Below, in pieces: positions 5,241 through 27,633 of a stretch of 64,000 bases of DNA. The stretch is from Pseudomonas kuykendallii (GTDB lineage: Bacteria; Pseudomonadota; Gammaproteobacteria; Pseudomonadales; Pseudomonadaceae), in NCBI RefSeq assembly GCF_900106975.1, contig NZ_FNNU01000003.1:492727-556726 (forward strand), given 5' to 3'. Position 1 is the stretch's first letter; each line of letters begins with the position of its first letter. A model generated the notes under the pieces. The model saw nothing but the letters and a program-made list of their open reading frames with translations, was not told where the DNA came from and made no database searches. The translations under genes and the position numbers were made by a program.

Positions 5241-5321
5241 CTACGGCGGAGGGCGGATTGTCGCAGATTTCCGCACCCCGCAACGAACACGGGACCGGCA
5301 TGCCGATCCCGGGCGCGCGAT

Positions 5322-6310: not shown

Positions 6311-6335
6311 GGCGCCCCGCGTTGCGCGGGGCGCC
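6311..6335 (-). terminator. Strong hairpin after the chemoreceptor gene
   Basis: GGCGCCCCGC and GCGGGGCGCC are perfect arms around a 5-base loop. The hairpin lies 5 bases past the chemoreceptor stop. No T-run follows, so it is either a terminator helped by Rho or an mRNA-stabilising hairpin. Confidence 0.5.
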
Positions 6336-6340
6336 GGGAC

Positions 6341-8023: not shown

Positions 8024-8164
8024 GAAGCATTTCCTTATAGAGCGTGACGGACGCCGGGCGGCGTCGCCACCGAGGCGGTGATTCTGACAAAAAGCGCGCA
8101 GCAGCGGGGCGACGAGCGAAATATCTGCGCCAGACTGCCGCAGGTCCGGACGCCGCGCAGCAAC

Positions 8165-8191
8165 GAAAAAGCCCCGCATGGGCGGGGCTTC
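8165..8191 (-). terminator. Rho-independent terminator of fadD1
   Basis: AAGCCCCGCCCATGCGGGGCTT, read on the minus strand, is followed by TTTCG. It lies directly after the fadD1 stop at 8209 and ahead of the chemoreceptor promoter region. Confidence 0.85.
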
Positions 8192-8208
8192 TCCGAACGG
8201 TGGTACGC

Positions 8209-9897: not shown

Positions 9898-9928
9898 GGA
9901 AGCCCACTCCTAAGCAACAGCTGGTCTC

Positions 9929-9945
9929 ATCGCCTTTGAGGCGAT
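9929..9945 (-). promoter_or_regulatory. Short hairpin in the fadD1 leader
   Basis: ATCGCC-TTTGA-GGCGAT lies 32-48 bases upstream of the fadD1 start. It could influence translation or mRNA stability. No acyl-sensing (PsrA/FadR-like) operator was recognised here. Confidence 0.3.
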
Positions 9946-10059
9946 TGGTTATTGTGTCTGCGCATCTTGCCCCGCACGGGGAGGGCAAAAAATCGCGCCG
10001 AGCGTAGCAGCTTTGCCAGGAGCCCACCAGCACCAACATCTGCCTAGTCAGTAACGAAA

Positions 10060-10085
10060 ATGACCGGATACAAGTATCCGGTCAT
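10060..10085 (-). terminator. Rho-independent terminator of fadD2
   Basis: The perfect 12-base arms ATGACCGGATAC and GTATCCGGTCAT enclose AA. On the minus strand they are followed by TTTCG. The hairpin is 38 bases past the fadD2 stop and separates fadD2 from fadD1. Confidence 0.85.
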
Positions 10086-10123
10086 ATTTTTCAGCCTTGC
10101 CTGAAATGCCCTTTCCAGACGCC

Positions 10124-11812
10124 TCAGGCGATGTCGCGCAGCTCGCGGCGGAGGATCTTGCCCACCGGCGTCATCGGCAACGCGTCCCTGAGGACGATGT
10201 GCTTGGGCACCTTGTAGCCGGTGAAGTTGGCTTTGCAGTAGTCCTTGAGTTCCTCGACGCTGACCCCGCCCTCGCGCGGCACGACGAACAGCTTCACCGC
10301 CTCGCCGGAACGCTCGTCCTCGACGCCGATGGCGGCGCAGCTGGCGACGCCCGGATGGGCCATCACCACTTCCTCGATCTCGTTGGGGTAGACGTTGAAG
10401 CCGGAGACGATGATCAGGTCCTTCTTGCGGTCGACAATGCGCGTGTAGCCATCCGGGTCGATCACGGCGATGTCGCCGGTCTTCAGCCAGCCCTCGGCGT
10501 CCAGCACCTCGGCGGTCGCCTCCTCGCGCTGCCAGTAGCCCTTCATCACCTGCGGCCCCTTGATGCACAGCTCGCCGCGTTCGCCCAGCGGCAGCTCGTT
10601 GCCGTCGTCGTCGATCACCTTGAACGCGGTGCCGACCACCGGGATACCCACGGTGCCCAGCCGCGCCTTGTCGCCGTAGGGGTTGGTGCTGGCCACCGGA
10701 GAGGTTTCAGTGAGTCCGTAGCCTTCCACCACCATGCAGCCGGTCAGCTGTTTCCAGCGGTCGGCGGTGGCCTTGACCAGCGCGGTGCCGCCGGAATTGG
10801 TCAGCTTGAGGTTGGAGAAGTCCAGGGTCTTGAAGTCGGGATGGTCCATCAGCGCGACGAACAGGGTGTTCAGCCCGAGCAGCGCGGAGAAGCGCCACTT
10901 CTTCAGCTCCTTGATGAAGCCGCCGATGTCGCGCGGGTTGGTGATCAGCACGTTGTGGTTGCCGTTGAGCATCATGCACATGCAGTTCGCGGTGAACGCA
11001 TAGATGTGGTACAGCGGCAGCGGCGCGATCATCACCTCCTCGCCCACCTTCATCAGCGGCTTGCCGTCCGGGCCGAGCTGCTGCATGCAGGCGTCCACCT
11101 GGAGCATGTTGGCCACCAGGTTGCCGTGGGTAAGCATGGCGCCCTTGGCCACGCCGGTGGTGCCGCCGGTGTACTGCAGCACGGCGATGTCGTCGAGACC
11201 GACGTTCACCGGTTTCTGCCCGTGACCCTGGCCCTTGCGCAGCGCCTCCTTGAACGGCACCGCCTGCGGCAGATGGTAGTCCGGGACCATCTTCTTGACC
11301 TTCTTCACCACCGTGTTGACCAGCAGCCCCTTGAGGCTCGGCAGCATGTCGCCCATGCGCGCCTCGATCAGGTAGTCGATCTGCGTATCGGGCAGCACCT
11401 CCTCGACCAGCTTGCCGAACATGTTCAGGTAGACCAGCGCGCGCACGCCGGCGTCCTTGAACTGGTGGCGCATCTCGCGGGCGGTGTACAGCGGGTTGGT
11501 GTTGACCACCACCAGCCCGGCACGCAGGGCGCCGAACACGGCGATCGGGTACTGCAGCACGTTGGGCATCTGCACGGCGATGCGGTCGCCGGGCTGCAGG
11601 TCGGTGTGCTTCTGCAGGTAGCAGGCGAAGGCGGCGGCCTGGCGATTGAGCTCGGCGTAGCTGAGGGTGACGCCGAGGTTGCTGAACGCCGGACGGTCGG
11701 CGAACCGCTTGCACGAGCGCTCGAACACTTCGATGACGGACGAGTAAGCCGTCTGATCGATCGAAGCAGGCACTCCGGCCGGACGTTTGTCGCTCCAGAA
11801 ATCAGGCTGCAT
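10124..11812 (-). CDS. fadD2: Long-chain fatty acid-CoA ligase (FadD2 type)
   Basis: This 562-residue acyl-CoA synthetase is clearly paralogous to fadD1. It contains the P-loop [23 protein letters not shown], and [20 protein letters not shown] followed by [18 protein letters not shown]. The start at ATG 11812 (MQPDFWSDKRPAGV) has a good AAGGAGA ribosome binding site 8 bases upstream; longer in-frame starts lack one. It is divergent from the lipase/MaoC pair starting at 12038, and the 225 bases between them should hold both promoters. In P. aeruginosa the two FadD enzymes are reported to differ in preferred chain length; which prefers what here cannot be read from sequence. Confidence 0.93.
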   Translation of the reverse strand: MQPDFWSDKRPAGVPASIDQTAYSSVIEVFERSCKRFADRPAFSNLGVTLSYAELNRQAAAFACYLQKHTDLQPGDRIAVQMPNVLQYPIAVFGALRAGLVVVNTNPLYTAREMRHQFKDAGVRALVYLNMFGKLVEEVLPDTQIDYLIEARMGDMLPSLKGLLVNTVVKKVKKMVPDYHLPQAVPFKEALRKGQGHGQKPVNVGLDDIAVLQYTGGTTGVAKGAMLTHGNLVANMLQVDACMQQLGPDGKPLMKVGEEVMIAPLPLYHIYAFTANCMCMMLNGNHNVLITNPRDIGGFIKELKKWRFSALLGLNTLFVALMDHPDFKTLDFSNLKLTNSGGTALVKATADRWKQLTGCMVVEGYGLTETSPVASTNPYGDKARLGTVGIPVVGTAFKVIDDDGNELPLGERGELCIKGPQVMKGYWQREEATAEVLDAEGWLKTGDIAVIDPDGYTRIVDRKKDLIIVSGFNVYPNEIEEVVMAHPGVASCAAIGVEDERSGEAVKLFVVPREGGVSVEELKDYCKANFTGYKVPKHIVLRDALPMTPVGKILRRELRDIA

Positions 11813-12037
11813 TGTTATTGTCTCCTTGGTCCTGAACGTGGCGCGCCCGCTCGTGCGGGCCTTTCCGGACGTTAGCAGGTGGGCCGGACGGCGCAAATCG
11901 CCATAGACCGCGTGAATCTTGCCGGCTTTGCCGCAGGCTGCTACCGCGCGGGCTGGCTATGCTCAAGCGGTCACCGGTGGCTTGCGCTGCCGGTCGTCCC
12001 GTGCAAAATGCCGCCACCACAGGGTTCGAGAACCACC

Positions 12038-12979
12038 ATGCGCCACGATGCCTTCTGGCTCACCACCAGCGATGCCGCGCCCGTCCACGTCCAGCGCTGG
12101 TTCGCCGAACAACCGCCGAAAGCCGTGCTGATGCTGGCCCACGGCATGGCCGAACACGCCGGCCGCTATGCCCGTTTCGGCGCGGCGCTGGTCGCCGCCG
12201 GCGTCGAGCTGTATGCCCACGACCAGCGTGGCCACGGCCAGACGGCGCAGCGCGGCATCCTCGGCGACTACGCGGTGAAGGATGGCTGGCAACGGGTGAT
12301 CGACGACCTCGCCGCGCTCAACCACCACATCCGCCAGCAGCACCCGCGCACGCCGATCTTCCTGCTCGGCCACAGCATGGGCAGCTACATCGCCCAGGCC
12401 TACCTGATGCAGCACAGCTGCGCGGTGAGCGGCGCGATCCTTTCCGGCTCCAACTACCAGCCGGTCTCGCTGTATCGCGCGGCGCGCCAGGTGGCGCGTT
12501 TCGAGCAATGGCGCCAGGGCCCGACCGGGCGCAGCGCGCTGATCGACTTCCTGTCCTTCGGCTCCTTCAACAAGGCCTTCAAGCCGAACCGCACCGCCTT
12601 CGACTGGCTAAGCCGCGACCCGGCGGAAGTGGACGCCTACGTCGCCGACCCGCTGTGCGGCTTCCGCTGCACCAACCGCCTGTGGATGGACCTGCTCGGC
12701 GGGCTGCAGGACATCACCCCGCTGGAGAAGCTGGCGCAGATCGACGCACGCCTGCCGCTGCTGGTGATCGGTGGCGAGTGCGATCCGGTCAGCGACGGCG
12801 AGCGCCTGGAAGACCTCGCCGAAGCGATGCAGCGCGCCGGCCTGCGCAAGGTGCAACTGAAACTCTACCCGGACGCCCGTCACGAGCTGCTCAACGAGAC
12901 CAATCGCGACGAGGTGACCGCCTTCCTCATCGACTGGCTGCAACAGGCCCTCGACTCATCCGCCAAGGACACTCCATGA
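12038..12979 (+). CDS. Alpha/beta hydrolase, monoacylglycerol lipase/lysophospholipase-like
   Basis: This 313-residue serine hydrolase resembles the Hydrolase_4 (monoacylglycerol lipase) family. LAHGMAEHAGRY is the oxyanion-hole HG region, GHSMGS is the nucleophile elbow, GGECDPVS carries the likely acid Asp, and YPDARHELLNE carries the catalytic His. No signal peptide is seen, so it is probably cytoplasmic. The start at ATG 12038 (MRHDAFWL) gives the normal family length. Its stop overlaps the start of the next gene (ATGA at 12976), so the two are translationally coupled. Release of fatty acids from monoacylglycerols or lysophospholipids would fit the divergent fadD2. The same gene order occurs in P. 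aeruginosa (PA3301-PA3302, from memory). Confidence 0.85.
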   Translation: MRHDAFWLTTSDAAPVHVQRWFAEQPPKAVLMLAHGMAEHAGRYARFGAALVAAGVELYAHDQRGHGQTAQRGILGDYAVKDGWQRVIDDLAALNHHIRQQHPRTPIFLLGHSMGSYIAQAYLMQHSCAVSGAILSGSNYQPVSLYRAARQVARFEQWRQGPTGRSALIDFLSFGSFNKAFKPNRTAFDWLSRDPAEVDAYVADPLCGFRCTNRLWMDLLGGLQDITPLEKLAQIDARLPLLVIGGECDPVSDGERLEDLAEAMQRAGLRKVQLKLYPDARHELLNETNRDEVTAFLIDWLQQALDSSAKDTP

Positions 12980-13446
12980 CCCAGCTCCGCAACTTCCCCT
13001 ACGACAGCCTCGAAGTCGGCCAGACCGCACGCTACGAAAGGACCGTCGAAGAACGCGACATCCAGCTGTTCGCCGCGGTTTCCGGCGACCGCAACCCGGT
13101 GCACCTCGATGCCGCCTACGCGGCCGGCACGCAGTTCAAGGAGCGCATCGCCCACGGCATGTTCAGCGGCGCGCTGATCAGCGCGGCCATCGCCTGCGAG
13201 CTGCCGGGACCGGGCACCATCTACCTCGGCCAGAGCCTGAAATTCACCCGCCCGGTGAAGCTCGGCGACGCCCTGACCGTGGAGCTGGAAATTCTCGAAA
13301 AGCTGCCGAAGAACCGCGTGCGCATCGCCACCCGGGTGATCAACCAGGATGGCAAGAAGGTGGTGGACGGCGAGGCGGAGGTGATGGCGCCGACCGAGGC
13401 GCTGAACATCCCCCTGACCGAGCTGCCGCCGATCACCATCGGCTGA
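12976..13446 (+). CDS. MaoC-family (R)-specific enoyl-CoA hydratase (PhaJ-like)
   Basis: This 156-residue protein has a single hot-dog fold. SGDRNPVHLDAAYA carries the hydratase catalytic Asp and His, and RIAHGMFSGALIS is the second signature. PhaJ-type enzymes hydrate 2-enoyl-CoA to (R)-3-hydroxyacyl-CoA, linking beta-oxidation to polyhydroxyalkanoate or rhamnolipid precursors. In P. aeruginosa the homologue next to the lipase and fadD2 is, as I recall, one of the PhaJ enzymes (rhlY/rhlZ family), but which one cannot be fixed from sequence. It overlaps the lipase stop by 4 bases. The C-terminal tail of about 20 residues after VDGEAEVMAP is slightly longer than the minimal family. Confidence 0.85.
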   Translation: MTQLRNFPYDSLEVGQTARYERTVEERDIQLFAAVSGDRNPVHLDAAYAAGTQFKERIAHGMFSGALISAAIACELPGPGTIYLGQSLKFTRPVKLGDALTVELEILEKLPKNRVRIATRVINQDGKKVVDGEAEVMAPTEALNIPLTELPPITIG

Positions 13447-13755
13447 CAGTCCGGTACGCCGGCGATGCGCGGGGCGCATCCTACGGAAGGCAATCACGAG
13501 TTAGGGTACGCCAGGCGCACCGCGTCGGCCATATCTGGTGCAGGCGTCACGGCCACGCACCAGCGCGGCTCACGAAACAGCCATATCGCACAAGAAATCG
13601 CGTCAATCCCGTGAAAATCCCTCAATTATCTGTGCATAACGCACAAGTATCACCGTCGCCCTGACCAACCTGCGCTTTTCCGTGTTTTCTCCATCGACCT
13701 GGCACAACCTTCGCAATCGCCGAGGCCACACCAAACGATTGCGCGAGGAGACGGC
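13447..13755. other. Intergenic region with REP-like pieces and the permease promoter
   Basis: This 309-base gap after maoC holds GC-rich repeat-like sequence near the left end (ATGCGCGGGGCGCATCCTACGG at about 13464-13485, then TTAGGGTACGCCAGGCGCACC near 13500). Such pieces are typical of Pseudomonas extragenic repeats. The right half (about 13600-13745) is less GC-rich and is the likely promoter region of the operon starting at 13756. It includes ATAACGCACAAGTATCAC. I see no gene here. Confidence 0.45.
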
Positions 13756-15030
13756 ATGGCCCAGGCAGCGGACAACGGCAACGACTACCCCCTCAGCGAG
13801 GTCCCGGCCGGGGCACGCAAAGGCTTGTTTTCCACCTCGATCATGCTGTTCGGCTTCACCTTCTTCACCGCCACCATGTTCGCCGGCGGCAAGATCGGCA
13901 TGGCCTTCGACTTCAAGACGCTGATCTGGGCAGCGCTCATCGGCAACCTGCTGCTTGGCGCCTACGCCGCCGTGCTCGGCCTGATCGCCTGCCGCAGCGG
14001 GCTCAACTCGGTGCTGATGGGGCGCTTCTGCTTCGGCGAAGTGGGCAGCAAGCTGTCCGACATGCTGCTCGGCTTCACCCAGGTCGGCTGGTACGCCTGG
14101 GGCACCGCGACCATGGCCCTGGCGCTGGTGAAGATCCTCGGCCTGCCGGAAGGCTGGACCATTCCGCTGATGGTGCTGTTCGGCTTCGGCTTCTGCATCA
14201 CCGCCTTCGTCGGCTACAGGGGCCTGGACCTGCTGTCGCGCGTCGCGGTGCCGGCCATGTGCGTATTCCTGGTCTGGTCGCTGTGGCTGGCCACCGGCAA
14301 GGTTGGCGGCCTCGATGCACTGCTGGCAATCCAGCCGCAGGAAAGCATGAGCATGAACCTGGCGATCACCATGATCTTCGGCACCTTCGTCAGCGGCGCC
14401 ACCCAGGCCACCAACTGGACGCGTTTCGCCCGCAACGGCCGGGTGGCGATGCTTTCCAGCATGGTCGGGTTCTTCTTCGGCAATGGCCTGATGATCGTCA
14501 CCGGCGCCTACGGTGCCATCGTCTACCAGCAACCCGACGTGGTCGAGGTTCTGGTACTGCAGGGCCTGTCGATGATTGCCGTGATGATGCTCTTCCTCAA
14601 CCTGTGGACCACCCAGGACAACACCATCTACAACTTCGCCGCCGCCGGCTGCAACCTGCTGCGCAGCGAGCGACGCAAGCTGATCACCGTGGTCGGCGCC
14701 GGCATCGGTACCCTGCTGGCGATCGGCGGCATGTACGAGATGCTGATCCCGTTCCTGATCCTGCTCGGCTCTATCATCCCGCCGATCGGCGGCGTGATCA
14801 TGGCCGACTACTTCTACGGGCATAAGCAGCGCTACCCGCGCCTGGCGGACGTGCGCCTGCCGAAGTTCAACGCCGTCGGCCTCGCCGCCTACTTCATCGG
14901 TGCCTTCTGCGCCTACGTCTCGCCCTGGGTAGCGCCCATCGTTGGCATCCTGGTCGGCGCGCTGGCGTATGTCGTGCTGTTCCAGTTGCGCCAGTTGGCC
15001 ACCCGCAGCGCCGGCACCAGCCGCGCCTGA
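13756..15030 (+). CDS. codB: Cytosine permease-like NCS1 transporter (CodB family)
   Basis: This 424-residue inner-membrane protein belongs to the NCS1 nucleobase:cation symporters. About 12 hydrophobic segments are visible. The N-terminus resembles E. coli CodB (419 residues), with PLSEVPAGARKG, LFGFTFFTATMFAGGKIG and the segment ending in TNWTRFARNGRVA. The ribosome binding site GAGGAGA is 6 bases before ATG 13756. It heads a plus-strand block that includes a 2-OG oxygenase, an ABC importer, a PucR-type regulator and a CodA-family deaminase. If that deaminase prefers 5-methylcytosine, this permease may carry the modified base; substrate choice cannot be read from sequence. Confidence 0.88.
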   Translation: MAQAADNGNDYPLSEVPAGARKGLFSTSIMLFGFTFFTATMFAGGKIGMAFDFKTLIWAALIGNLLLGAYAAVLGLIACRSGLNSVLMGRFCFGEVGSKLSDMLLGFTQVGWYAWGTATMALALVKILGLPEGWTIPLMVLFGFGFCITAFVGYRGLDLLSRVAVPAMCVFLVWSLWLATGKVGGLDALLAIQPQESMSMNLAITMIFGTFVSGATQATNWTRFARNGRVAMLSSMVGFFFGNGLMIVTGAYGAIVYQQPDVVEVLVLQGLSMIAVMMLFLNLWTTQDNTIYNFAAAGCNLLRSERRKLITVVGAGIGTLLAIGGMYEMLIPFLILLGSIIPPIGGVIMADYFYGHKQRYPRLADVRLPKFNAVGLAAYFIGAFCAYVSPWVAPIVGILVGALAYVVLFQLRQLATRSAGTSRA

Positions 15031-15058
15031 CTACGCCATTCACTTCAGGGACGCCACC

Positions 15059-16120
15059 ATGCAAACCGTAAGAACCGGCAACGGCCCCCGCAGCTTCAGT
15101 GCCTCGGGCCTTGAAGCGCGCCAGTTGCCCTTCTCCGAAATCCCCGTGATCGATTTCTCCGCCATGTACGGCGATGACCCGGAGGCCCGGCAACGGGTCG
15201 GCGAAGAGGTGCGCAAGGCGTGCACCGAGGTCGGCTTCTTCTACGCCCGCGGGCACGGCGTGCCGGACGAGGTGATCGATGCCACCTTCAGCGCCGCCCA
15301 CCGCTTCTTCGACCTGCCGCTGGAGGTGAAGAAGGCGGTGGACATCGACCGCTCGCCGAACATGCGCGGCTACACGCCGATGCTCGGCGAGAACACCAAC
15401 GAGGAAGGCCAGGGCGACATGCACGAGGGGTTCGACCTGGCCCTGGAAGTGCCCGCCGACGATCCCGACGTGCAGGCCGGCGTGTTCGGCTACGGCCCCA
15501 ATCAGTGGCCCGAGCAACTGCCCGGTTTCAAGCCCGCGCTGCTCGCCTACCACGCCGCCATGCTGGATTTCGGTCGGCGCATCTTCGCCGCCTTCGCCCT
15601 GGCCCTGGAGCTCGAAGAGGACTTCTTCGAGGGCTACCTGAACAAGCCGATGGCGCACATGCGCGTGCTCTCCTACCCGAGCCAGAGCGGCGCCATCGAC
15701 GACGCGCAGATCGGCATCGGCGCGCACTCCGACTACGAGTGCTTCACCATCCTGCGCACCGACGAAGTGCCGGCTCTGCAGGTGCTCAACAGCGCCGGCG
15801 AGTGGATCCAGGCGCTGCCGATTCCCGGCTGTTTCATCGTCAACGTCGGCGACCTGATGGCGCGCTGGACCAACGGCTACTTCGCCTCGACGCTGCATCG
15901 CGCGATCAATGCCTCGGGGCGCCAGCGCTACTCGATCCCCTTCTTCTTCGGCCCCGACTCGCAGAGCCTGATCGAGGTGCTGCCGAGTTGCCAGAACCCG
16001 GACTGGCCGCCGCAGTACCCGCCGATCACCGCCGGCGACTACATCCGCTCGCGCTTCGACCACACCTACTTCCACCGCCAGAAAGACGAAAGCCAAACTC
16101 CTGAAGGGAATACCCCATGA
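15059..16120 (+). CDS. 2-oxoglutarate/Fe(II)-dependent oxygenase, isopenicillin N synthase fold
   Basis: This 353-residue enzyme has the DIOX_N region (about residues 28-140) and the 2OG-FeII oxygenase jelly roll (about 195-300). The iron facial triad is visible: His223 and Asp225 in GAHSDYECFTIL, and His280 in STLHRAI. The 2-oxoglutarate clamp is Arg290 and Ser292 in QRYSIPFFF. All key residues are present, so it should be active. The start at ATG 15059 has AGGGA upstream. It lies 28 bases after codB, and its stop overlaps the next start (ATGA at 16117). Relatives act on many small molecules, including ring methyl groups (thymine 7-hydroxylase is a fungal example of the fold). In this operon a role in oxidising a modified base such as thymine is an inference. 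Confidence 0.85.
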   Translation: MQTVRTGNGPRSFSASGLEARQLPFSEIPVIDFSAMYGDDPEARQRVGEEVRKACTEVGFFYARGHGVPDEVIDATFSAAHRFFDLPLEVKKAVDIDRSPNMRGYTPMLGENTNEEGQGDMHEGFDLALEVPADDPDVQAGVFGYGPNQWPEQLPGFKPALLAYHAAMLDFGRRIFAAFALALELEEDFFEGYLNKPMAHMRVLSYPSQSGAIDDAQIGIGAHSDYECFTILRTDEVPALQVLNSAGEWIQALPIPGCFIVNVGDLMARWTNGYFASTLHRAINASGRQRYSIPFFFGPDSQSLIEVLPSCQNPDWPPQYPPITAGDYIRSRFDHTYFHRQKDESQTPEGNTP

Positions 16121-17229
16121 AAACTCGCCGTCACGCGTCCCTGCACCTCGCCTGTATCGGCCTGCTGGCCTCCACCGCCCTGCTCGCCCTGGCACCCGCG
16201 CAGGCGGCGGAAGCCTTCAAGCTGGCCGGCAAGCCGAAGATCGCCTTCATCTATGCCGCCACCGTCAAGGACGGCGGCTGGAATGAATCCATCGACAACG
16301 GCCGCCAGCAGGTGGCCAGCGAACTCGGCTACCCGATCGCCGTGGCGGAGAGCATTCCCGAGGAATCCACCGCGCTGAAGAACGCCATCGACCTCTACGT
16401 GCAGCGCGGCTTCAACATCATCGTCACCACCTCCTTCGGCTACTCCGACGGCGTGCTGGAAGCGGCCAAGAAGTACCCGCAGGTGGCCTTCCTCGCCGCC
16501 TCCGGCACCACCAACGCGGCCAACCTGGAAAGCTTCTACCCGCGCACCTACCAGGCCTGGTACCTGGCGGGCATCGCCGCCGCCTCGGTCAGCCCGAACA
16601 AGACCCTGGGCATGCTCGGCGGCTTCCCGGTGGCGCCGGTGAACTGGGACATCAACGGTTTCGCCCTCGGCGCGCAGTCGGTCGACCCGACGATCAAGAC
16701 CATCGCCCTCTACACCAACTCCTGGTGGGACCCGGCCAAGGAAAGCCAGGCGGCCAAGTCGATCCTCGAGCAGAACGCCGACGTGATCGCCAACAACCTG
16801 TCCTCGGCCGGCCCCTTCACGGCTGCGGAAAAGGCCGGCAAGGCCTCGGTGGGCTTCCAGCTGGACATGAGCAAGATGGCACCCAAGGGTCACCTGACCT
16901 CGGTGGTCTTCCACTGGGACAAGTACCTGGTGCCGACCATCCGCAAGATCGTCGACGGCAGCTGGGAGCCGAACCAATACGGCGCCTTCCCCGGCCTCGC
17001 CGAAGGCGTAGTGGACATCACCCCGCTGAGCGACAAGGTGCCCGCCGAGGCCCGCGCGAAGATCGAGGCGGTGCGCGCGCAGATCATCGCCGGCAGCTTC
17101 TCGCCGTTCAGCGGCCCGCTGTTCAAGCAGAACGGCGAGGAGGCCGTGGCCGCCGGTGCGGCGCTGGACGACGCGGCGATCTGGAACATGGACTACCTGG
17201 TCAAGGGCACCGTCGGGAGCGTCAAGTGA
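16117..17229 (+). CDS. BMP-family ABC transporter substrate-binding protein (nucleoside/nucleobase type)
   Basis: This 370-residue periplasmic protein has a signal peptide (hydrophobic residues 12-27, cleavage near AQA at 28-30). The mature start KPKIAFIYAATVKDGGWNES is the hallmark of basic membrane protein (BMP/PnrA/Med) family binding proteins, many of which bind purine nucleosides. It is the first gene of a complete importer: binding protein, dual ATPase, two permeases. It overlaps the oxygenase stop by 4 bases. The ligand may be a nucleobase or nucleoside related to the deaminase substrate; binding residues were not assigned. Confidence 0.9.
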   Translation: MKTRRHASLHLACIGLLASTALLALAPAQAAEAFKLAGKPKIAFIYAATVKDGGWNESIDNGRQQVASELGYPIAVAESIPEESTALKNAIDLYVQRGFNIIVTTSFGYSDGVLEAAKKYPQVAFLAASGTTNAANLESFYPRTYQAWYLAGIAAASVSPNKTLGMLGGFPVAPVNWDINGFALGAQSVDPTIKTIALYTNSWWDPAKESQAAKSILEQNADVIANNLSSAGPFTAAEKAGKASVGFQLDMSKMAPKGHLTSVVFHWDKYLVPTIRKIVDGSWEPNQYGAFPGLAEGVVDITPLSDKVPAEARAKIEAVRAQIIAGSFSPFSGPLFKQNGEEAVAAGAALDDAAIWNMDYLVKGTVGSVK

Positions 17230-17234
17230 CAGCC

Positions 17235-18755
<1,521 letters not shown>

Positions 18756-18770
18756 CATGAGAATGAAACG

Positions 18771-19844
18771 ATGATCGCGCTGCCTTACACCTTCGCCCTG
18801 CAACGCCGCCTGACGCTGTCCGGCCGTCGTGGCGTCGGCACCTTCGTCGGCGGCCTGGCTGCCGGCATCCTGCTCGGCCTGGCGCTGCTGGTCTGGGCCG
18901 GCGTACCGACGGAGTCGCTGCTCGACGACCTCTTCGTGCAGGTCTTCATCAGCCCGCAGGGACTGGCGCAGACGCTGACCCTGACGGTGCCGCTGATTCT
19001 CGTCGGGCTGTCCTCGGCGGTCGCCATGCGGGTGAAGTTCTGGAACATCGGCATCGAGGGCCAGCTCTGGCTCGGCGCCATCGGCGCCACGGCCGTCTCC
19101 CTCTACGGCGTCGGCCCCGAGGCGCTGCGCCTGCCGCTGATGCTGCTCGCCTCCGCGCTGTTCGGCGCCGCCTGGATCGCCCTGCCACTGGTGTTGCGCC
19201 TGCGCCTGCAGGTCAGCGAACTGGTGGTCACCCTGCTGCTCTCGAACATCGCCTACCTGCTGTTGCAGCACCTGCTGTTCGGTGCCTGGCGCGATCCGGC
19301 CAACAGCTTCCCGATGTCGATGCAGATCGGCGGCGACGAGCGTCTGGCGCTGCTCGGCTTCGGCAACCTGCACAGCGGCCTCTTCATCGCCCTCGCCGTG
19401 ACCCTGCTGGTGGCGATGCTCAGCGAACGCAGCCGGCTCGGCTTCCACGCCGCCGCCATCGGCGCCAACCCGCAGGTGGCGCGCGCCGCCGGCATTCCGG
19501 TGGGCCTCACGCTGGCGATCATGGTACTGCTCTCCGGCGCGCTGTCCGGCCTCGCCGGCGGCCTGATCATCACGGGCAGCGAGTATCGCCTGACGCAGAA
19601 CATCGGCTGGAACATGACCTTCAGCGGCATCGTCATCGCCTTCGTCGCGCGCTTCAAACCGCTGTGGATCCTGCCCACCGCCTTCGCCCTCGCCGGGCTG
19701 TACAACGCCGGCAGCACGCTGAAAGTGTTCTACGGCCTGTCCGACGCCGTCGTCGTGCTGCTGCAGGGGCTGATCCTGATGAGCCTGCTCGTCGCGCAAT
19801 TCTTCGCCCATTACCGCATCGACATGAAGAAGGAGCCGCGCTGA
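18771..19844 (+). CDS. ABC transporter permease, nucleoside type (first of two)
   Basis: This 357-residue inner-membrane permease belongs to the BPD_transp_2 family, with 8-10 hydrophobic segments. The segments VPLILVGLSSAVAMRVKFWN and NIGIEGQLWLGAIGATAV match the conserved cytoplasmic coupling region of nucleoside-type permeases such as YufP/NupP. It starts 15 bases after the ATPase stop, and its own stop overlaps the next start (TGATG). It pairs with the second permease to form the translocation channel. Confidence 0.92.
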   Translation: MIALPYTFALQRRLTLSGRRGVGTFVGGLAAGILLGLALLVWAGVPTESLLDDLFVQVFISPQGLAQTLTLTVPLILVGLSSAVAMRVKFWNIGIEGQLWLGAIGATAVSLYGVGPEALRLPLMLLASALFGAAWIALPLVLRLRLQVSELVVTLLLSNIAYLLLQHLLFGAWRDPANSFPMSMQIGGDERLALLGFGNLHSGLFIALAVTLLVAMLSERSRLGFHAAAIGANPQVARAAGIPVGLTLAIMVLLSGALSGLAGGLIITGSEYRLTQNIGWNMTFSGIVIAFVARFKPLWILPTAFALAGLYNAGSTLKVFYGLSDAVVVLLQGLILMSLLVAQFFAHYRIDMKKEPR

Positions 19845-20773
19845 TGGACATCGCCTTCCTCGGCAGCTGGCTCGGCAGCGTACCGACCGCCGCCATCCCA
19901 CTGCTGCTGGCCAGCGTCGGCCTGATCCTGTCCGAACGCGCCGGCGTGGTCAGCCTCGGCGTCGAGGGCTACCTGGCGATGGGCGCGATGGCCGCCGCCG
20001 CGGTGACCCTGGAGAGCGGCAGCCTGGTTCTCGGCATCGCCGCCGGGGTGGCCGCCGGCGCCCTGCTCGCACTGGGCTTCGGCATCGCCGTGGTGCTGCT
20101 GCGCGCCGAGCAGATCCTCGCCGGCCTGGCGACCATGGCGATCGGCCTCGGCGCCGCCGGGCTGCTCGGCCGCGACTACGTGCATCGCACCTTCGAAGGC
20201 GTGACCAACGTCGACCTGGGCAGCCTCGCCCAGGTGCCGCTGCTCGGCCAGCTGCTGTTCGCCCAGGACCCGCTGGCCTACCTGGCCATCCTCCTCACCC
20301 TCGGCGGCTGGTGGTTGATCGCCCGCAGCCACTTCGGCCTGCGCCTGCGCGCGGTCGGCGAAGACCCGGCGACCGCCGATGTCGCCGGGGTCAACGTGCA
20401 ACTGCACCAGTTGTTCGCGGTGACCTGCTGCGGTGCGCTCGGCGGCCTCGGCGGCGCATACTTGTCCGCGGTGGCGAGCAACGTCTGGGTCGAGAACATG
20501 GTCGCCGGGCGCGGCTGGATCGCCCTGGCGCTGGTCATCTTCGCCCGCTGGGACCCACTGCGGGCGATCCTCGGTGCCTTTCTCTTCGGTGCGGTGGAAG
20601 CACTGCTGCCGCGCCTGCAGGCCAGCGGCTTCGACGCGCCGGTGTACCTGATGGGCATGCTGCCCTACGCGCTGACCATCGTCGTGCTGGTGGCCGCCAG
20701 TTGCTCGCGGGCGCGGCGCAACGCCGAACCGGCGGCGCTCGGGCAGTCCTACATCCGCCAGGACCGGCGCTGA
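19844..20773 (+). CDS. ABC transporter permease, nucleoside type (second of two)
   Basis: This 309-residue partner permease resembles YufQ/NupQ-type proteins. GLILSERAGVVSLGVEGYLAMGA is split here as GLILSERAGVVSLG then VEGYLAMGAMAA, the family signature, and later segments are strongly hydrophobic. The start ATG overlaps the previous stop, and the stop overlaps the regulator start (TGATG at 20771-20775). The tight coupling of binding protein, ATPase and both permeases indicates one stoichiometric complex. Confidence 0.92.
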   Translation: MDIAFLGSWLGSVPTAAIPLLLASVGLILSERAGVVSLGVEGYLAMGAMAAAAVTLESGSLVLGIAAGVAAGALLALGFGIAVVLLRAEQILAGLATMAIGLGAAGLLGRDYVHRTFEGVTNVDLGSLAQVPLLGQLLFAQDPLAYLAILLTLGGWWLIARSHFGLRLRAVGEDPATADVAGVNVQLHQLFAVTCCGALGGLGGAYLSAVASNVWVENMVAGRGWIALALVIFARWDPLRAILGAFLFGAVEALLPRLQASGFDAPVYLMGMLPYALTIVVLVAASCSRARRNAEPAALGQSYIRQDRR

Positions 20774-22014
20774 TGAGCCTGACCGTCGCCGACGCCCTCG
20801 CCCTCCCCGGTCTGGAAAGCATGCACCTGCGCGCCGGCGCGGCGGGGCTCGACAATCCGGTGCGCTGGCCCTACGTGGCCGAGAACGAAGGCATCGCCGA
20901 CTGGGTGATGGGCGGCGAACTGATCTTCGTCACCGGCATCAACCATCCCCGCGACGAGGCCAACCTGCTGCAACTGGTGCGCGAGGCGCAGCAGCGGGTG
21001 GTCGCCGGAATGGTCATCCTCACCGGCGAGGAATTCATCCAGCAGATTCCCGAGGCGGTGATCGCCGAAGCCGAGCGCCTCGGCGTGCCGCTGCTCGAGC
21101 AGCCCTACCAGTTGAAGATGGTGGTGGTGACCCAGGCCATCGGCACCGCGCTGGTCCAGGAACAACTGCTCGGGCGCTCGCGCCAGCACGTTCTGGAGCA
21201 GTTGCTGGAAGGCGACTACCAATCCCTCGACGTGCTCACCCAGCGCGCCCAGACCCTGCACCTGCCGCTGGCCGTGCCGCGCCAGGTGGCGCTGTTCAAG
21301 CTGGAAAACAGCGAGCGGCTGTTCGCCGGGGACGACCTGCAGGACGCCGAGCGCAGCCTCCAGGCCAGCCGCCAGCGCCTGCAGCGACGTCTTGAACAGG
21401 CTCTGAACGACCTCGGCGAGCCGCTCGCCCTGGTCTGCCAGGGCGAGCACTGGATCGCCCTGCTGCCCGCCGCCGACGCCCAGCGCGAGCAGCTCAACCG
21501 GCAACTAATGACCGGCCTGCTCGACGAACTCAACCAGACCCTGGCGCCGCTGCGACTGTTCCTTGGCCTCAGCGCCGGCGGTCATGGCCCGTCCGGCTAT
21601 GCCCTCGCACTCGGCGAGGCGCGCCAGGCGCTCGTCGCCGCACAATCCTTCCCGGAGCGCCTGGGGTTATGCTGCTTCAACGAACTCGGCGTGCTCGAAC
21701 TGCTCGGCGCGATTCGCGATCGCAAGCTGCTCGACCGCTTCGTCGATACCACCCTTGGCGCGCTGATCGGCGACGACTCGCGCCACGAGCCGGTGCTGAT
21801 GCCGACGCTGGAGGCCTGGTTTCACGAGAACGGCAACCTGGCCCTGGCCGCGCAGCGCCTGGCCGTGCACCGCAACACCCTGAGCTACCGGATGCAGCGT
21901 ATCGAAGCGCTCACCGGCCGCTCGTTCGACGACCCGCACCAGCGCCTGAACACCGCCGTCGCCCTGATGATCTGGCGGCTATCGTCTCCCCGAAATCCAC
22001 GGAGTCCTGCATGA
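20773..22014 (+). CDS. PucR-family transcriptional regulator
   Basis: This 413-residue protein has the PucR N-terminal ligand domain (about residues 1-125: TVADALALPGLESMHLRAG, FVTGINHP, GVPLLEQPYQ). A central GGDEF-like/CdaR region follows (about 150-320). The C-terminal helix-turn-helix (HTH_30) spans about 345-400, with FHENGNLALAAQRLAVHRN and TLSYRMQRIEALTG. PucR proteins control purine and other nitrogen catabolic genes in response to small ligands. It sits inside the operon, between the transporter and the deaminase, and overlaps both by 1-4 bases. It is therefore the likely local regulator and probably autoregulates. Its effector could be the imported base or its deaminated product. 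Confidence 0.9.
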   Translation: MSLTVADALALPGLESMHLRAGAAGLDNPVRWPYVAENEGIADWVMGGELIFVTGINHPRDEANLLQLVREAQQRVVAGMVILTGEEFIQQIPEAVIAEAERLGVPLLEQPYQLKMVVVTQAIGTALVQEQLLGRSRQHVLEQLLEGDYQSLDVLTQRAQTLHLPLAVPRQVALFKLENSERLFAGDDLQDAERSLQASRQRLQRRLEQALNDLGEPLALVCQGEHWIALLPAADAQREQLNRQLMTGLLDELNQTLAPLRLFLGLSAGGHGPSGYALALGEARQALVAAQSFPERLGLCCFNELGVLELLGAIRDRKLLDRFVDTTLGALIGDDSRHEPVLMPTLEAWFHENGNLALAAQRLAVHRNTLSYRMQRIEALTGRSFDDPHQRLNTAVALMIWRLSSPRNPRSPA

Positions 22015-23252
22015 ATATCGTCAACGCCCGCCTGCGCGGAAAAGACGGCCTGTACCGCATCGAGCTGAGCGGCGAGCGCATCGCCGCGATCCAGACCCAG
22101 GTCGGCAGCAGCGTCGCCAACCCCGGCGACCTCGACGCCACCGGCAACCTGGTCACGGCACCCTTCATCGAGCCGCACATCCACCTGGACGCCACCCTCA
22201 CCGCCGGCGAGCCGGCCTGGAACATGAGCGGCACGCTGTTCGAAGGCATCGAGCGCTGGGCCGAGCGCAAGGCGCTGGTGACCCACGAGGACAGCAAGAC
22301 GCGGGCGAAGAAGACCATCGACATGCTCGTCGACCACGGCATCCAGCACGTGCGCACCCACGTCGACGTCACCGACCCGACCCTCGCCGCGCTCAAGGCG
22401 ATGGTCGAGGTGCGCGAGGAAACCCGCCACCTGATCGACCTGCAGATCGTCGCCTTCCCGCAGGAAGGCATCGAGTCCTACGCCAATGGCCGCAAGCTGA
22501 TGGAGGAATCGCTGGTGATCGGCGCCGACGTGGTCGGTGGCATCCCGCACTTCGAGAACACCCGCGACCAGGGCGTCAGCTCGATCAAATTCCTCATGGA
22601 CCTGGCCGAGCGCAACGGCTGCCTGGTGGACGTGCATTGCGACGAAACCGACGATCCGCAGTCGCGCTTCCTCGAAGTGCTGGCCGAGGAAGCCCGCGTG
22701 CGCGGCATGGGCGAACGCGTCACCGCCAGCCACACTACGGCGATGGGCTCCTACGACAACGCCTACTGCTCCAAGCTGTTCCGCCTGCTGAAGATGTCCG
22801 GGATCAACTTCATCTCCTGCCCGACCGAGAGCATCCACCTGCAAGGCCGCTTCGACACCTATCCTAAGCGCCGCGGCCTGACCCGGGTGGCGGAAATCGA
22901 CCGCGCCGGGATGAACGTCTGCTTCGCCCAGGATTCCATCGTCGACCCGTGGTATCCCCTGGGCAACGGCAACATCATGCGCATCCTCGAAGCCGGCCTG
23001 CACATCTGCCACATGCTCGGTTACGACGACCTGCAGCGCGGCCTCGACCTGATCACCGACAACAGTGCGCGCACCCTGAACCTGGGCGAGCGCTACGGCC
23101 TGGAAGCCGGCCGCCCGGCCAACCTGCTGGTTCTTTCCGCACCCAGTGACTACGAGATGATCCGCAGCCAGGGCCACGCGCTGGTCTCGATCCGTCACGG
23201 CAAGGTGCTGATGCAACGCACCCCGGCAAAAATCGAGCGCATGGCGGGCTGA
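22011..23252 (+). CDS. codA: CodA-family deaminase, predicted 5-methylcytosine deaminase
   Basis: This 413-residue amidohydrolase aligns along its whole length with E. coli cytosine deaminase CodA. Shared segments include GTLFEGIERWAERKAL, DLQIVAFPQEGI, VTASHTTAM, KLFRLLKMSGINF and HLQGRFDTYPKRRG. Metal and catalytic residues are present: His56 and His58 (EPHIHLD), Gln151, His209 and Glu212 (VDVHCDE), His241 and Asp308. The notable change is at Ser309 (CFAQDSIVDPW), where E. coli CodA has Asp314 (CFGHDDVFDPW). Homologues lacking that Asp, such as ones from Klebsiella and Rhodobacter, are known to deaminate 5-methylcytosine to thymine. This is the best prediction here, but ordinary cytosine is not excluded. 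It overlaps the regulator stop (ATGA) and is the last gene of the block. Confidence 0.85.
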   Translation: MNIVNARLRGKDGLYRIELSGERIAAIQTQVGSSVANPGDLDATGNLVTAPFIEPHIHLDATLTAGEPAWNMSGTLFEGIERWAERKALVTHEDSKTRAKKTIDMLVDHGIQHVRTHVDVTDPTLAALKAMVEVREETRHLIDLQIVAFPQEGIESYANGRKLMEESLVIGADVVGGIPHFENTRDQGVSSIKFLMDLAERNGCLVDVHCDETDDPQSRFLEVLAEEARVRGMGERVTASHTTAMGSYDNAYCSKLFRLLKMSGINFISCPTESIHLQGRFDTYPKRRGLTRVAEIDRAGMNVCFAQDSIVDPWYPLGNGNIMRILEAGLHICHMLGYDDLQRGLDLITDNSARTLNLGERYGLEAGRPANLLVLSAPSDYEMIRSQGHALVSIRHGKVLMQRTPAKIERMAG

Positions 23253-23433
23253 CGAGAAATGAGGGACACGGCTGAGCGACCGATCACAGGATCGATTCGC
23301 CGGCGAGGCGGGAATGCGCGGGCGGGATGCGCGTCGAGCCACTCGATCGGGCCAGACGGAAAACAGCGGTAAGAGAGACGGGTTTCGGCGTCATCTATCG
23401 GGCCAGGCCGCCTGAAACCACTTTTCTGCAGGC

Positions 23434-23460
23434 AAAAAAACGGGCGACCGAAGTCGCCCC
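23434..23460 (-). terminator. Rho-independent terminator after the 38-residue CcoM-like gene
   Basis: On the minus strand GGGCGAC-TTCG-GTCGCCC is a stem capped by a UUCG tetraloop, followed by a seven-T run after one G. It lies 30 bases past the small gene's stop. Confidence 0.9.
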
Positions 23461-23489
23461 AAGTGCCTTGCGTGCTCTTTAAAGAAGGA

Positions 23490-23606
23490 TCAGTTTGCTT
23501 TTTGCTTCTTCGAGTCCTTCCAGATGAAAAGTCCGAAACTGGTGCAGAAAACGACACAGAGTCCGACGATAAGCAGACCTGCGATTACCACTTCATCTAG
23601 AAACAT
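23490..23606 (-). CDS. 38-residue single-span membrane protein, CcoM-like (cbb3 oxidase accessory subunit)
   Basis: This short gene (ATG 23606, stop 23490) encodes MFLDEVVIAGLLIVGLCVVF, then CTSFGLFIWKDSKKQKAN. It has one hydrophobic span of about 22 residues, an acidic N-terminus and a lysine-rich C-terminus, giving N-out/C-in topology. The AGGAGG ribosome binding site is near perfect. Size, topology and the FxWKD end resemble CcoM, the small subunit seen in the Pseudomonas stutzeri cbb3 cytochrome oxidase, which is encoded away from ccoNOQP. Support comes from upstream: a perfect Anr box at 23676-23689 with a -10-like TATCTT about 25 bases nearer the gene, and a strong terminator downstream. 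Other small respiratory or stress membrane proteins are possible. Confidence 0.65.
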   Translation of the reverse strand: MFLDEVVIAGLLIVGLCVVFCTSFGLFIWKDSKKQKAN

Positions 23607-23648
23607 GGATGGCCTCCTGCGATGGGGCGTTATGCTTGGATGGGTCCA

Positions 23649-24180: not shown

Positions 24181-26601
24181 CTAGAAGCCGATCGTGGCCG
24201 AGAGGATGTAGGTGCGCGGTGTGGCAAGCGTCAAACCGGGCTCGCTATCGTCCGAAGCACCCGCCGAGATCCAGTCGCGCTCGTTCAGCAGGTTTTCGAC
24301 GGTGCCGCGCAAGGTAATGACCTTTTCATCGACCTTGAAGGCGTAGCGGGCGCCGACGTCATAGCGCGTCCAGGCGTCGATTTCCTTGGTGTTGTCCTGA
24401 TCCAGATACTGGGAACTGCTGTAGATGCCACGGGCGGTCAGGGTGAGCCCCTGCACCCTTGGCACGTCCCACTCGGCACCGAGGTTGACGTTGTACTTGG
24501 GCGTGGCCGGGGCGCGGTTACCATCGTTGGCGCCGCCGTTGTTGGTGTCTTCCAGGTTGCTGTCGATGTACATCACACCGCCGAGCAGGCGGACGCCACC
24601 GACGGGCTCGCCGAACAGGCTCAACTCGATACCGTCGTTCACCCGCTTGCCACTGGGGCCGAAAGTGCCCTCCAAACCTGGACCGGGTGCATCACCTGTC
24701 TCATAGGCGGGCTGTTTGATGCGAAATGCTGCAGCGGTAATGGCGAACTTGCCCATGTCGTATTTGGCACCGGCCTCAAGCTGGCGGCTGATGAACGGGG
24801 GGAAGATGTCGTCTTCGTTGCTGGCGGTCGAGGGAGCGATCTTGCCCTGGCTCAGGCCTTCCATGTAGTTGGCGTAAAGCGACAGCTGATCGGTAGCCTT
24901 GAACAGCACGCCAACCGACGGCGAGAGTTTCTCCTCGTCGTAGGAGGTTTCGCCCTTGATGCCATTCTCCCAGTCGTCGACCTTCACCCGCTGCCAACGC
25001 GCGCCGAGCGTCAGGAGCATCCGATCCTCGAAAAAGCCCAGGGTGTCGGACAAGGCGACGCCGCTGAAGCGGTTCTCGGTGTAGATCTTCGCGTCAGTCC
25101 GGGTCCGCACGGTCGGTTCGGGCGTAGTGACCGGGTCGTAAAGATTGCCCGGGCGGTTGGCGTAACGCCCGCCACCGTTCTCGAAGTCCATCGAGAAATA
25201 GTCGGCGGCCAGATTCACCTCATGGCTCACTGTGCCGGTCCGGAACCATTTGCGCACACCGGCATTGACCGTGCGTACGTCTTCGTCGCGGGTGAAGTCG
25301 CGGGGCTGGATGGTGAAGTCGCCCGCGGCATTGGTGATCGATACGTTGTGGCGCAGGAAGTCGTGGTTGCTCTTACGTGCCCCGACCGCGCCGTAAACCA
25401 TCAGCGAGTCGTCGATGTCGTACTCGCCCCGTATCGCACCGAAGGTGTCGCGGGTCCGGGCTTTGGTCCAGGCCTGGGCATAGTTGTGGCGAACATCATC
25501 CGCCCTGGGCACGGGCGCATCGTCGCCCACCAGCACCCGCTCCTGGGGTGCATCGGTATCGCGCTCGGTATGGCCTACGTCCATCGACAGGCGCAGGCGC
25601 TCGTCGCGGAAATCGAGGCCGACGATGGCCATCTCGCGGTCGACCTTCTGGTGATCCCACTCGGTATCGCCGGATTGCTTGACGCCGTTGAAGCGGATGC
25701 CGAAGCGGTTGTCCTCGCCGAAGCGGCGGCCTACGTCCAGCGCGCCGCCCACCTGGCTGTCGGAGACATAGCTGGTGGTGAATTCGGTAATGGGCTTGTC
25801 GGTGGCGCGCTTGGGCACGATGTTGATGCCGCCGCCGACGCTACCGCGCGGCGATATGCCGTTGATCAGTTGGGTCGGGCCGCGAAGGATGTCGACGCGA
25901 TCGGCCATCTCCATGTCGATGGAGTACGTCGGCATGATGCCGTAGAGGCCGCCGTAGGACACATCGCTGTTGAACAGGCTGAAACCACGGATGGTGAACT
26001 GTTCGAAACGACCGCCCGCCGGATTGGTGGAGCGTACCGCCGGATCGCTGGCGGTCAGATCGGCCAGGGTACGTGCCTGCTGATTCTTCACCGCCGCCGA
26101 GGTGTAGGTGGTCATGCTGAACGGCGTATCCATGAAGTCGCGCGAACCCAGCAAACCCTGCGAGCCGAGCCGGGCGACCTGACCGCCGGCGTAGGCCTGG
26201 CCGTCCGCCGAGCCGCTGGCAGCGATGACCGAAGCAGGCGCCAGTTGCAGCGCAGCACCTTCCGCGACCGGCGCGAGGGTGTAGGCCTGCTCGCCGACGG
26301 GCACAAGTCGCAGGCCGGTGCCCAGCAGCAAGTGGGCGAAGCCCTCCTCGACGCCATACTGCCCGGAAAGGCCGGCCGTGGTGCGTCCATTGACCAGCGC
26401 CGGATCGACCGACAGGCTGACGCCAGCCTGCCCGGCAAAACGCGTCAGCGCGGGACCCAGGCTACCGGAAGGGACCTCGTAACTACGCGGCGGCGGCGTA
26501 TCTGCCCAACTGCTCGGGATGAATGGCGGGAGGGAACTCAGGGCCAGCAACAAGGCGAGATGCGACAGCGGGCTCGTACGAAAAGGCGGTGCAGCGGACA
26601 T
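24181..26601 (-). CDS. TonB-dependent siderophore receptor with signalling domain
   Basis: This 806-residue outer-membrane receptor has a signal peptide (residues 1-34). The STN signalling domain (about 40-105, SYEVPSGSLGPALTRFAGQA) marks receptors that report to a FecR anti-sigma factor. A plug domain (about 150-260) follows, with RTLADLTASDPAVR and FTIRGF. The 22-strand barrel ends in YILSATIGF, the classical terminal Phe. Siderophore-receptor motifs such as RVDILRGPTQLINGISPRGSVGGGINI (here read in two pieces around 240-265) are present. Ligand is unknown; the FpvA/FoxA/FiuA-like type takes up ferric siderophores, often made by other microbes. It follows fecI-fecR on the same strand, so its expression should need that sigma factor. 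Confidence 0.92.
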   Translation of the reverse strand: MSAAPPFRTSPLSHLALLLALSSLPPFIPSSWADTPPPRSYEVPSGSLGPALTRFAGQAGVSLSVDPALVNGRTTAGLSGQYGVEEGFAHLLLGTGLRLVPVGEQAYTLAPVAEGAALQLAPASVIAASGSADGQAYAGGQVARLGSQGLLGSRDFMDTPFSMTTYTSAAVKNQQARTLADLTASDPAVRSTNPAGGRFEQFTIRGFSLFNSDVSYGGLYGIMPTYSIDMEMADRVDILRGPTQLINGISPRGSVGGGINIVPKRATDKPITEFTTSYVSDSQVGGALDVGRRFGEDNRFGIRFNGVKQSGDTEWDHQKVDREMAIVGLDFRDERLRLSMDVGHTERDTDAPQERVLVGDDAPVPRADDVRHNYAQAWTKARTRDTFGAIRGEYDIDDSLMVYGAVGARKSNHDFLRHNVSITNAAGDFTIQPRDFTRDEDVRTVNAGVRKWFRTGTVSHEVNLAADYFSMDFENGGGRYANRPGNLYDPVTTPEPTVRTRTDAKIYTENRFSGVALSDTLGFFEDRMLLTLGARWQRVKVDDWENGIKGETSYDEEKLSPSVGVLFKATDQLSLYANYMEGLSQGKIAPSTASNEDDIFPPFISRQLEAGAKYDMGKFAITAAAFRIKQPAYETGDAPGPGLEGTFGPSGKRVNDGIELSLFGEPVGGVRLLGGVMYIDSNLEDTNNGGANDGNRAPATPKYNVNLGAEWDVPRVQGLTLTARGIYSSSQYLDQDNTKEIDAWTRYDVGARYAFKVDEKVITLRGTVENLLNERDWISAGASDDSEPGLTLATPRTYILSATIGF

Positions 26602-26667
26602 GGCAAGTCTCTCGTATTTTATTCACTTACCGGGAATGACCGGCGAGCTGAAAAAAAGGGACGAGCT

Positions 26668-27633
26668 TTACGCGCTGTTCTTCTGCGTGAAGGCTTTGCG
26701 AGACCGCAGCGTGACCCAGTAACGGCTACGCATCTGCACCTCGACCGGCAGGCTGGCCGCCAGCAACGAGAGGATCTGTTCGGTGTCGTCGAGACGGAAC
26801 GTGCCGGTGACACGAAGGTTTTCGAGCTCGGGCTCCCAGCGCAACAGTCCGACGCGATAACGGCTCAGTTCGCGCAGGAAGTCACCCAGGGCCTGGTCCT
26901 GCGCCGTGAGTACGCCCTCGCGCCAACCGGGCGCGGAAACGTCGAAGACGCCAATCGGCCCTGCCCCGTTCAACGCCAGACGGACCTGCTGACCTGCATG
27001 CAAATCCATCGACACGCCCCGCAACGGCCCCAACTGAACCGAGCCGCTGAGCACCGACACCTGGCAATCGCTGGAGTTGAGCCGTACACAGACCGCGCTC
27101 CGACCTACGAGGATGCGCCCATATGGCGCCTCGATGGCCAGTACCGCGTTGCCCGGCACGCTCAGCGCAATTTCGCCACGCAGCAGCGTCACGACGCCGC
27201 TGCCCAGGTCCAGATTCACGGCACTGTCCGTGTTGAGTTGCAGCAAGCTACCTGCGGCCAGCGGTAGCTTACGGAGTTCACCGGTGGAGGTGTGGAGGTC
27301 GGCGCGCCAGACATCCAGCGGCAACTGCCGGCTCAGCAACCAGGCTGCAGGAACCACCGCGGTAATACCCAAGGCTCGCTTGAGCAGCGCGCGACGGCCC
27401 TGGTCCGGTCGGTCCAGAGTGGACATTGCCAGCCCCGACGGCAGGCCGCAGAAGCGCTCGCGCAGTTGGCGAGCCTTCTGCCAGGCGCGCTCGTGGGTAC
27501 TGGAACTCTTACGCCAGCTCTGCAACTCCGGGTGATCGTCCTCGCAGGTGCCCGCCGACTCCAGCAGCGCCAACCACTGTGCCGCCTGGCGTATTACCTC
27601 GCGATCCTCGTTCGAGGGCACTCGGCGCGTCAC
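26668..27633 (-). CDS. FecR-family anti-sigma factor (sigma regulator)
   Basis: This 321-residue inner-membrane protein has the cytoplasmic N-terminal FecR domain (DUF4880; DREVIRQAAQWLALLESAG and the TAVVPAAWLLSR transmembrane span at about 90-105). A periplasmic FecR domain follows (STGELRKLPLAAGSLLQLNT, VVTLLRGEIALSV) and ends in a secretin/TonB short domain-like region that contacts the receptor's STN domain. The start was placed at GTG 27633 because it overlaps the fecI stop as GTGA; a TTG at 27651 would extend it by six residues. It keeps the sigma factor off until the receptor is loaded. Confidence 0.88.
   Translation of the reverse strand: MTRRVPSNEDREVIRQAAQWLALLESAGTCEDDHPELQSWRKSSSTHERAWQKARQLRERFCGLPSGLAMSTLDRPDQGRRALLKRALGITAVVPAAWLLSRQLPLDVWRADLHTSTGELRKLPLAAGSLLQLNTDSAVNLDLGSGVVTLLRGEIALSVPGNAVLAIEAPYGRILVGRSAVCVRLNSSDCQVSVLSGSVQLGPLRGVSMDLHAGQQVRLALNGAGPIGVFDVSAPGWREGVLTAQDQALGDFLRELSRYRVGLLRWEPELENLRVTGTFRLDDTEQILSLLAASLPVEVQMRSRYWVTLRSRKAFTQKNSA

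Follow-up and report, generated by a model that had tools for sequence, protein, structure and literature searches.

An eight-gene run in Pseudomonas kuykendallii, presumably one operon, combines a CodA deaminase close to a characterized 5-methylcytosine deaminase with a five-gene module, consisting of a 2-oxoglutarate-dependent oxygenase and a four-gene ABC importer, that recurs in other genomes. The run occupies positions 13,756 to 23,252 of the window, that is, the whole stretch of 64,000 nucleotides that was analyzed (contig NZ_FNNU01000003.1, positions 492,727 to 556,726). We tentatively explain it as a single nitrogen-scavenging operon, in which CodA would deaminate 5-methylcytosine and the oxygenase would oxidize an imported modified base before the deaminase acts. 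The decay of DNA and RNA sets free methylated bases, 5-methylcytosine among them, but their breakdown is little mapped. The features are the following.

13700..13715, + strand: sigma-54-type (-24/-12) promoter-like site, TGGCACAACCTTCGCA, 41 bases upstream of codB, matching 10 of 12 consensus positions
13756..15030, + strand: codB, cytosine permease (NCS1); PRK11017, 590.6 bits, cut-off 326
15059..16120, + strand: Fe(II)/2-oxoglutarate oxygenase, isopenicillin N synthase (IPNS) fold; DIOX_N and 2OG-FeII_Oxy
16117..17229, + strand: BMP/PnrA-like periplasmic nucleobase-binding protein; Pfam Bmp
17226..18755, + strand: ABC transporter ATPase; two ABC_tran stretches
18771..19844, + strand: ABC transporter permease 1; BPD_transp_2
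19844..20773, + strand: ABC transporter permease 2; BPD_transp_2
20773..22014, + strand: pucR, PucR-family transcriptional regulator; PucR, GGDEF_2 and HTH_30
22011..23252, + strand: codA, Ser-type cytosine/5-methylcytosine deaminase; PRK09230, 611 bits, cut-off 483; homology to 4R7W

The eight genes lie end to end, and adjacent genes overlap by four bases (ATGA or GTGA) or by one (TGATG), with two exceptions: 28 bases separate codB from the oxygenase gene, and 15 bases separate the ATPase gene from that of permease 1. The oxygenase gene sits between codB and the BMP gene, so that the module (oxygenase, BMP protein, ATPase and two permeases) is placed inside a codB-pucR-codA cassette. A first-pass annotation, made from the sequence alone, had described an operon of CodA, a CodB-type permease, a BMP importer, a PucR regulator and a 2-oxoglutarate oxygenase, and family matches bear out all eight genes. 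The comparisons below cover 80 oxygenase loci, 57 relatives and 369 class genomes.

The deaminase and its relatives

Alignment to solved relatives shows that CodA keeps H56, H58, Q151, H209, E212, H241 and D308, which we take to be the metal and catalytic residues, and that Ser309 occupies the position of Asp314 in Escherichia coli CodA, both as claimed in the first-pass annotation. In comparison with solved structures, the protein reaches 674 bits for the Klebsiella enzyme (4R7W) and 524 bits for E. coli CodA (1K6W). It is identical to 4R7W at 294 of 406 positions (72%) without gaps, and both contain the stretch FAQDSI, where E. coli CodA has FGHDDV. The accessible part of PMC6186785 cites this Klebsiella protein, Kpn00632, as a 5-methylcytosine deaminase with a serine at the Asp314 position. 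The operon enzyme would thus likely deaminate 5-methylcytosine, an activity of a type that is already known and not new here.

The lost aspartate had also been read as a distinguishing sign, and this did not survive a wider sample. CodA homologs were collected with the Ser-type protein as query (limits of 1e-60 and 1e-70) and irrespective of any oxygenase: the 13 from relatives comprised 11 Ser, 1 Cys and 1 Asp, and 16 others from the class genomes comprised 7 Ser, 8 Cys and 1 Asp. All 17 CodA proteins encoded near an oxygenase (15 in loci L009 to L088, the one in the window and that of genome G413, which counts in both lists) likewise lack Asp, the 15 consisting of 5 Ser and 10 Cys; a distant amidohydrolase (27%) at L057 was excluded from the count. 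Asp loss was therefore rejected as a marker of the oxygenase, and because Asp is absent from 27 of the 29 homologs sampled independently, the linkage of the oxygenase is to CodA generally, not to the Ser type.

The same frequency speaks for a different view of the enzyme, namely, that in life CodA is an ordinary cytosine deaminase for which 5-methylcytosine is a side substrate. The adjoining permease belongs to the cytosine permease family and, in the portion of PMC11633122 that was available, the CodB-like protein PA0438 supports growth of Pseudomonas aeruginosa on cytosine; nevertheless, we consider this quite unlikely given the 72% identity to Kpn00632, for which the structures 4R7W, 4R85 and 4R88 exist.

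A recurrent oxygenase-importer module

To follow the oxygenase across genomes, the best 80 of 108 loci from an orthologue scan were retained. A tree built with a quick method, in which 6 rows that were degenerate, partial or extra had been left out and 91 remained, placed 56 rows in the clade of the window's protein. The set followed here comprises 56 loci, 53 from this clade and three (L043, L069 and L084) placed by identity. Neighbors were viewed within 10 kb, their gene families being verified on examples, and some contigs end within this view, so that the counts are lower bounds. A BMP gene accompanies the oxygenase in at least 44 of the 56 loci and an ATPase gene in at least 46. Oxygenase, BMP protein, ATPase and permeases thus recur together as a module. 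The closest relative of the module, at L009 of Corticibacter (oxygenase 81% identical), ends in pucR (74%), and no codA was seen there within 10 kb; this locus (2418-16992) carries three oxygenases of the same family and two BMP-ABC importers.

A CodA homolog was found in at least 14 of the 56 loci, in several arrangements. In four (L010, L012, L013 and L067), codB-pucR-codA is followed by the oxygenase and importer, and L015 is organized likewise without a codB hit; four Acetobacter loci (L026, L027, L031 and L040) combine the oxygenase, an NCS1 permease and CodA; and at L019 the importer is followed by CodA. The arrangement is looser at L029, L045, L053 and L054. By position, about 0.3 CodA genes would be expected in 56 loci even if every genome had one. 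CodA is more frequent near the orthologs than near the distant loci (14/56 versus 1/24; p = 0.03), and counting the degenerate L085, which has an adjoining CodA, as an ortholog gives 15/57 versus 0/23 (p = 0.004). Among the 369 class genomes, an oxygenase ortholog (E ≤ 1e-105) is present in two, the window's own and G413, where it lies 190 bases before a Ser-type codA, and codA (E ≤ 1e-70) is present in 17, including these two (p = 0.04 for co-occurrence, with the window left out). On the oxygenase tree, linkage to CodA arose more than once.

The co-occurrence of the two genes, whose absence would have refuted the first-pass annotation, is partly borne out: these loci and G413 speak for it, whereas none of 13 codA-bearing relatives has an orthologous oxygenase (best match, 42% identical). 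Also against the first-pass reading, at least 8 of the 56 loci carry purine genes: guanine deaminase in four, a CDA-type deaminase in three, and an adenosine-deaminase-family gene and the xanthine dehydrogenase genes xdhAB in two each. Six of these eight fall into one separate clade of the oxygenase tree. For example, in L044 and L046, xdhABC and a gene for a CDA-type deaminase come after the oxygenase, BMP, ABC and permease genes, which makes a purine version of the module.

Substrate of the oxygenase and order of the reactions

The first-pass annotation had CodA deaminate 5-methylcytosine to thymine, which the oxygenase would then oxidize in the manner of fungal thymine-7-hydroxylase. This order is consistent with the shared operon and the shared fold. 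The Fe ligands (H223, D225 and H280) and 2-oxoglutarate residues (R290, S292 and Y206) are kept in alignment to thymine-7-hydroxylase, and the residues that sandwich the base in that enzyme, Arg190, Tyr217 and Phe292 according to the accessible passages of PMC4787775, are conserved as Arg202, Tyr226 and Phe296, as would fit thymine. The sandwich is, however, common to 36 of the 38 relatives listed in the alignment and hence not specific, and the base contacts Asn87, Glu122 and Asn294 are replaced by Met102, Asp126 and Gly298 (the pairing of Glu122 with Asp126 depends on aligning distant proteins). Among solved relatives of the oxygenase, thymine-7-hydroxylase ranks ninth by sequence (115.6 bits) and 14th by fold, and it forms a long branch on the tree with a placement support of 13%. 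The predicted structure (mean pLDDT, 79.6) is poor at residues 216 to 223, which include the first Fe histidine, and the pocket was therefore not read from it. No decarboxylase is encoded among the eight operon genes, and the purine genes at 8 of the 56 loci also count against the thymine route. The comparisons of sequence, fold, residues and tree are not specific, and assignment of the oxygenase as a thymine-7-hydroxylase was rejected; the sequence of steps from CodA to thymine oxidation found no specific support and appears rather unlikely.

A better candidate for thymine oxidation may be encoded elsewhere in the same genome. At L127 (contig C11, 3914-15866), rutA, B, C, D and F and a RutR-type regulator gene are followed by a paralogous 2-oxoglutarate oxygenase and a BMP-ABC importer; rutE was not identified at this locus. 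Thymine-7-hydroxylase is the second-best match of the Rut-linked paralogue among solved structures (159.7 bits), which makes this paralogue the more plausible thymine oxygenase of the two. Two further paralogues lie on contig C4 (L125 and L126); one has two BMP genes and a gene of the 8-oxoguanine deaminase family in its vicinity, and the other has an ABC importer and a short open reading frame resembling a deaminase. As for the reductive pyrimidine pathway, one dihydropyrimidinase-family gene was seen in this genome, whose neighbors, judged from their open reading frames, look unlike the pathway; dihydropyrimidine dehydrogenase was not searched for.

Alternatively, the oxygenase and importer may act on a purine or some other base, in which case they would stand in one operon with codBA for common nitrogen control only. 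The purine genes at eight loci fit this view, as does the binding of guanine or adenine by the best solved BMP relatives, AtzT (6pi5) and 3s99. In the available sections of PMC7373994, a xanthine riboswitch ties IPNS-like dioxygenases beside nucleobase genes to purine oxidation, the functions of these enzymes being stated there as not established. On the other side stand the largely separate clade of the purine-linked loci, the repeated origin of CodA linkage and a different BMP pocket. Glu165 and Asn220 of AtzT, which contact guanine according to the part of PMC6834077 consulted, correspond to Pro174 and Ser229 in the operon protein, so that AtzT-type guanine contacts are not kept. The two positions hold Val and Ser in the other non-purine modules, CodA-linked or not; in seven loci that are purine-linked or belong to the purine clade, the first is D/S/T/N and the second D. 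Control by a xanthine riboswitch was rejected as well: at the Rfam gathering score, the window gave only PhrS, and 15 related loci gave no match. This alternative is, in our estimation, unlikely.

The explanation that we tentatively prefer thus places the oxygenase upstream of the deaminase, a step held with moderate confidence because the importer is the constant partner of the oxygenase and the nearby deaminase varies (CodA, guanine deaminase or an adenosine-deaminase-family enzyme). CodB would import cytosine and 5-methylcytosine, and CodA would convert the imported 5-methylcytosine to thymine, and probably cytosine to uracil, with release of ammonia. The ABC importer would bring in a modified base, which the oxygenase would oxidize, and likely demethylate, before the deaminase acts. 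Further nitrogen could be drawn from thymine or uracil through the Rut genes. Demethylation would fit the genes seen beside L021 (GcvT-like and VanA_C-like) and beside L056 (VanA_C-like), but such neighbors are few.

Besides this scarcity, several observations weigh against the preferred explanation. No CodA homolog was found within 10 kb at 42 of the 56 loci, although some contigs end early; at L053 and L054, CodA adjoins a second, 39 to 40% identical oxygenase, and at L029 and L045 it lies several kilobases away. Many rhizobial loci, at which no deaminase was found, have identical BMP pocket letters. The conserved base sandwich and the rarity of Asp in the sampled CodA proteins point the same way. 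A broader conjecture, rather unlikely in our view, is that the oxygenase clade consists of free-nucleobase oxidative demethylases that have their own importer and stand beside whichever deaminase fits, the present member demethylating free methylated cytosines from DNA and RNA turnover. If true, this would amount to a dedicated bacterial catabolic route for epigenetic bases.

Regulation, origin and known counterparts

The site before codB has the form GG-N10-GC, scored here by a 12-position measure of our own against a sigma-54 consensus. Sites scoring at least 10 were found upstream of codB in seven of nine relatives with codB, and the remaining two score 9; about 0.03 such sites per 350 bases are expected by chance. 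Scores of 10 or 11 also occur before codB in L010, L012, L013 and L067, before pucR in L015, and before the oxygenase in L009 to L013. In the window's own genome, such sites precede rutA and the Rut-linked oxygenase, and of the other two oxygenase paralogues, one has a site scoring 9 and one has none. COG0402 deaminases are listed as sigma-54 regulated in Proteobacteria in the excerpt available from PMC12316311. The conserved site suggests nitrogen control, and the operon would be expressed as a single transcript from this putative promoter under the control of PucR.

Downstream, a match to the Pseudomonas small RNA family PhrS (RF01673, 155.6 bits; 23433-23641, - strand) ends about 180 bases past codA, as fits a pseudomonad. 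Farther on, open reading frames alone point to a TonB-dependent receptor-like protein with an N-terminal signaling domain (24181-27651, - strand) beside a FecR-like protein.

In three relatives (L090, L094 and L095), codB, pucR and codA follow one another with no module in between; L090 has a more distant oxygenase-importer set (34 to 42%) downstream on the opposite strand, and five others (L089, L093, L096, L097 and L098) have codB-codA. The codB-pucR-codA order is also found on a Klebsiella plasmid. The most economical interpretation is entry of the module into an older codB-pucR-codA cassette; loss of the module from the relatives, rather than gain here, is also conceivable and counts against it.

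The newer part of the system is thus the five-gene module inside a cassette that three relatives and the Klebsiella plasmid have without it. A search for the joined pathway found no report in the literature covered, which left most subscription papers outside. The combination of a deaminase of known type with a recurrent importer-oxygenase module narrows to a short list the proteins and bases among which the missing oxidation step can be sought, and offers access to a function for a large family whose sole annotation is isopenicillin-N-synthase-like.

Several known systems resemble parts of this operon. Fungal thymine-7-hydroxylase (PDB 5C3O-5C3S) shares with the oxygenase the IPNS fold, the Fe and 2-oxoglutarate residues and the Arg/Tyr/Phe arrangement around the base; however, the two are 26 to 27% identical by fold alignment, the polar contacts are lost, and it is not the nearest solved relative. 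The purine oxidation loci under xanthine riboswitches, as described in the sections of PMC7373994 cited above, likewise combine IPNS-like oxygenases with nucleoside transporters and deaminases but differ in the riboswitch, none being found here, and in the deaminase, which here is CodA. The purine-binding BMP proteins AtzT and Brucella 3s99 have an aromatic sandwich that the operon protein keeps as Trp55 and Trp203, and differ at the two replaced guanine-contacting positions. With the E. coli codBA operon, the present one shares the permease and deaminase families, whereas Asp314 is replaced by Ser and PucR, the oxygenase and the ABC importer are added. Two counterparts are in Klebsiella: Kpn00632 matches the operon CodA in overall identity (72%), Ser309 and the FAQDSI stretch, and a related plasmid copy has the same codB-pucR-codA order, with neither an oxygenase nor a BMP importer lying within 5 kb.

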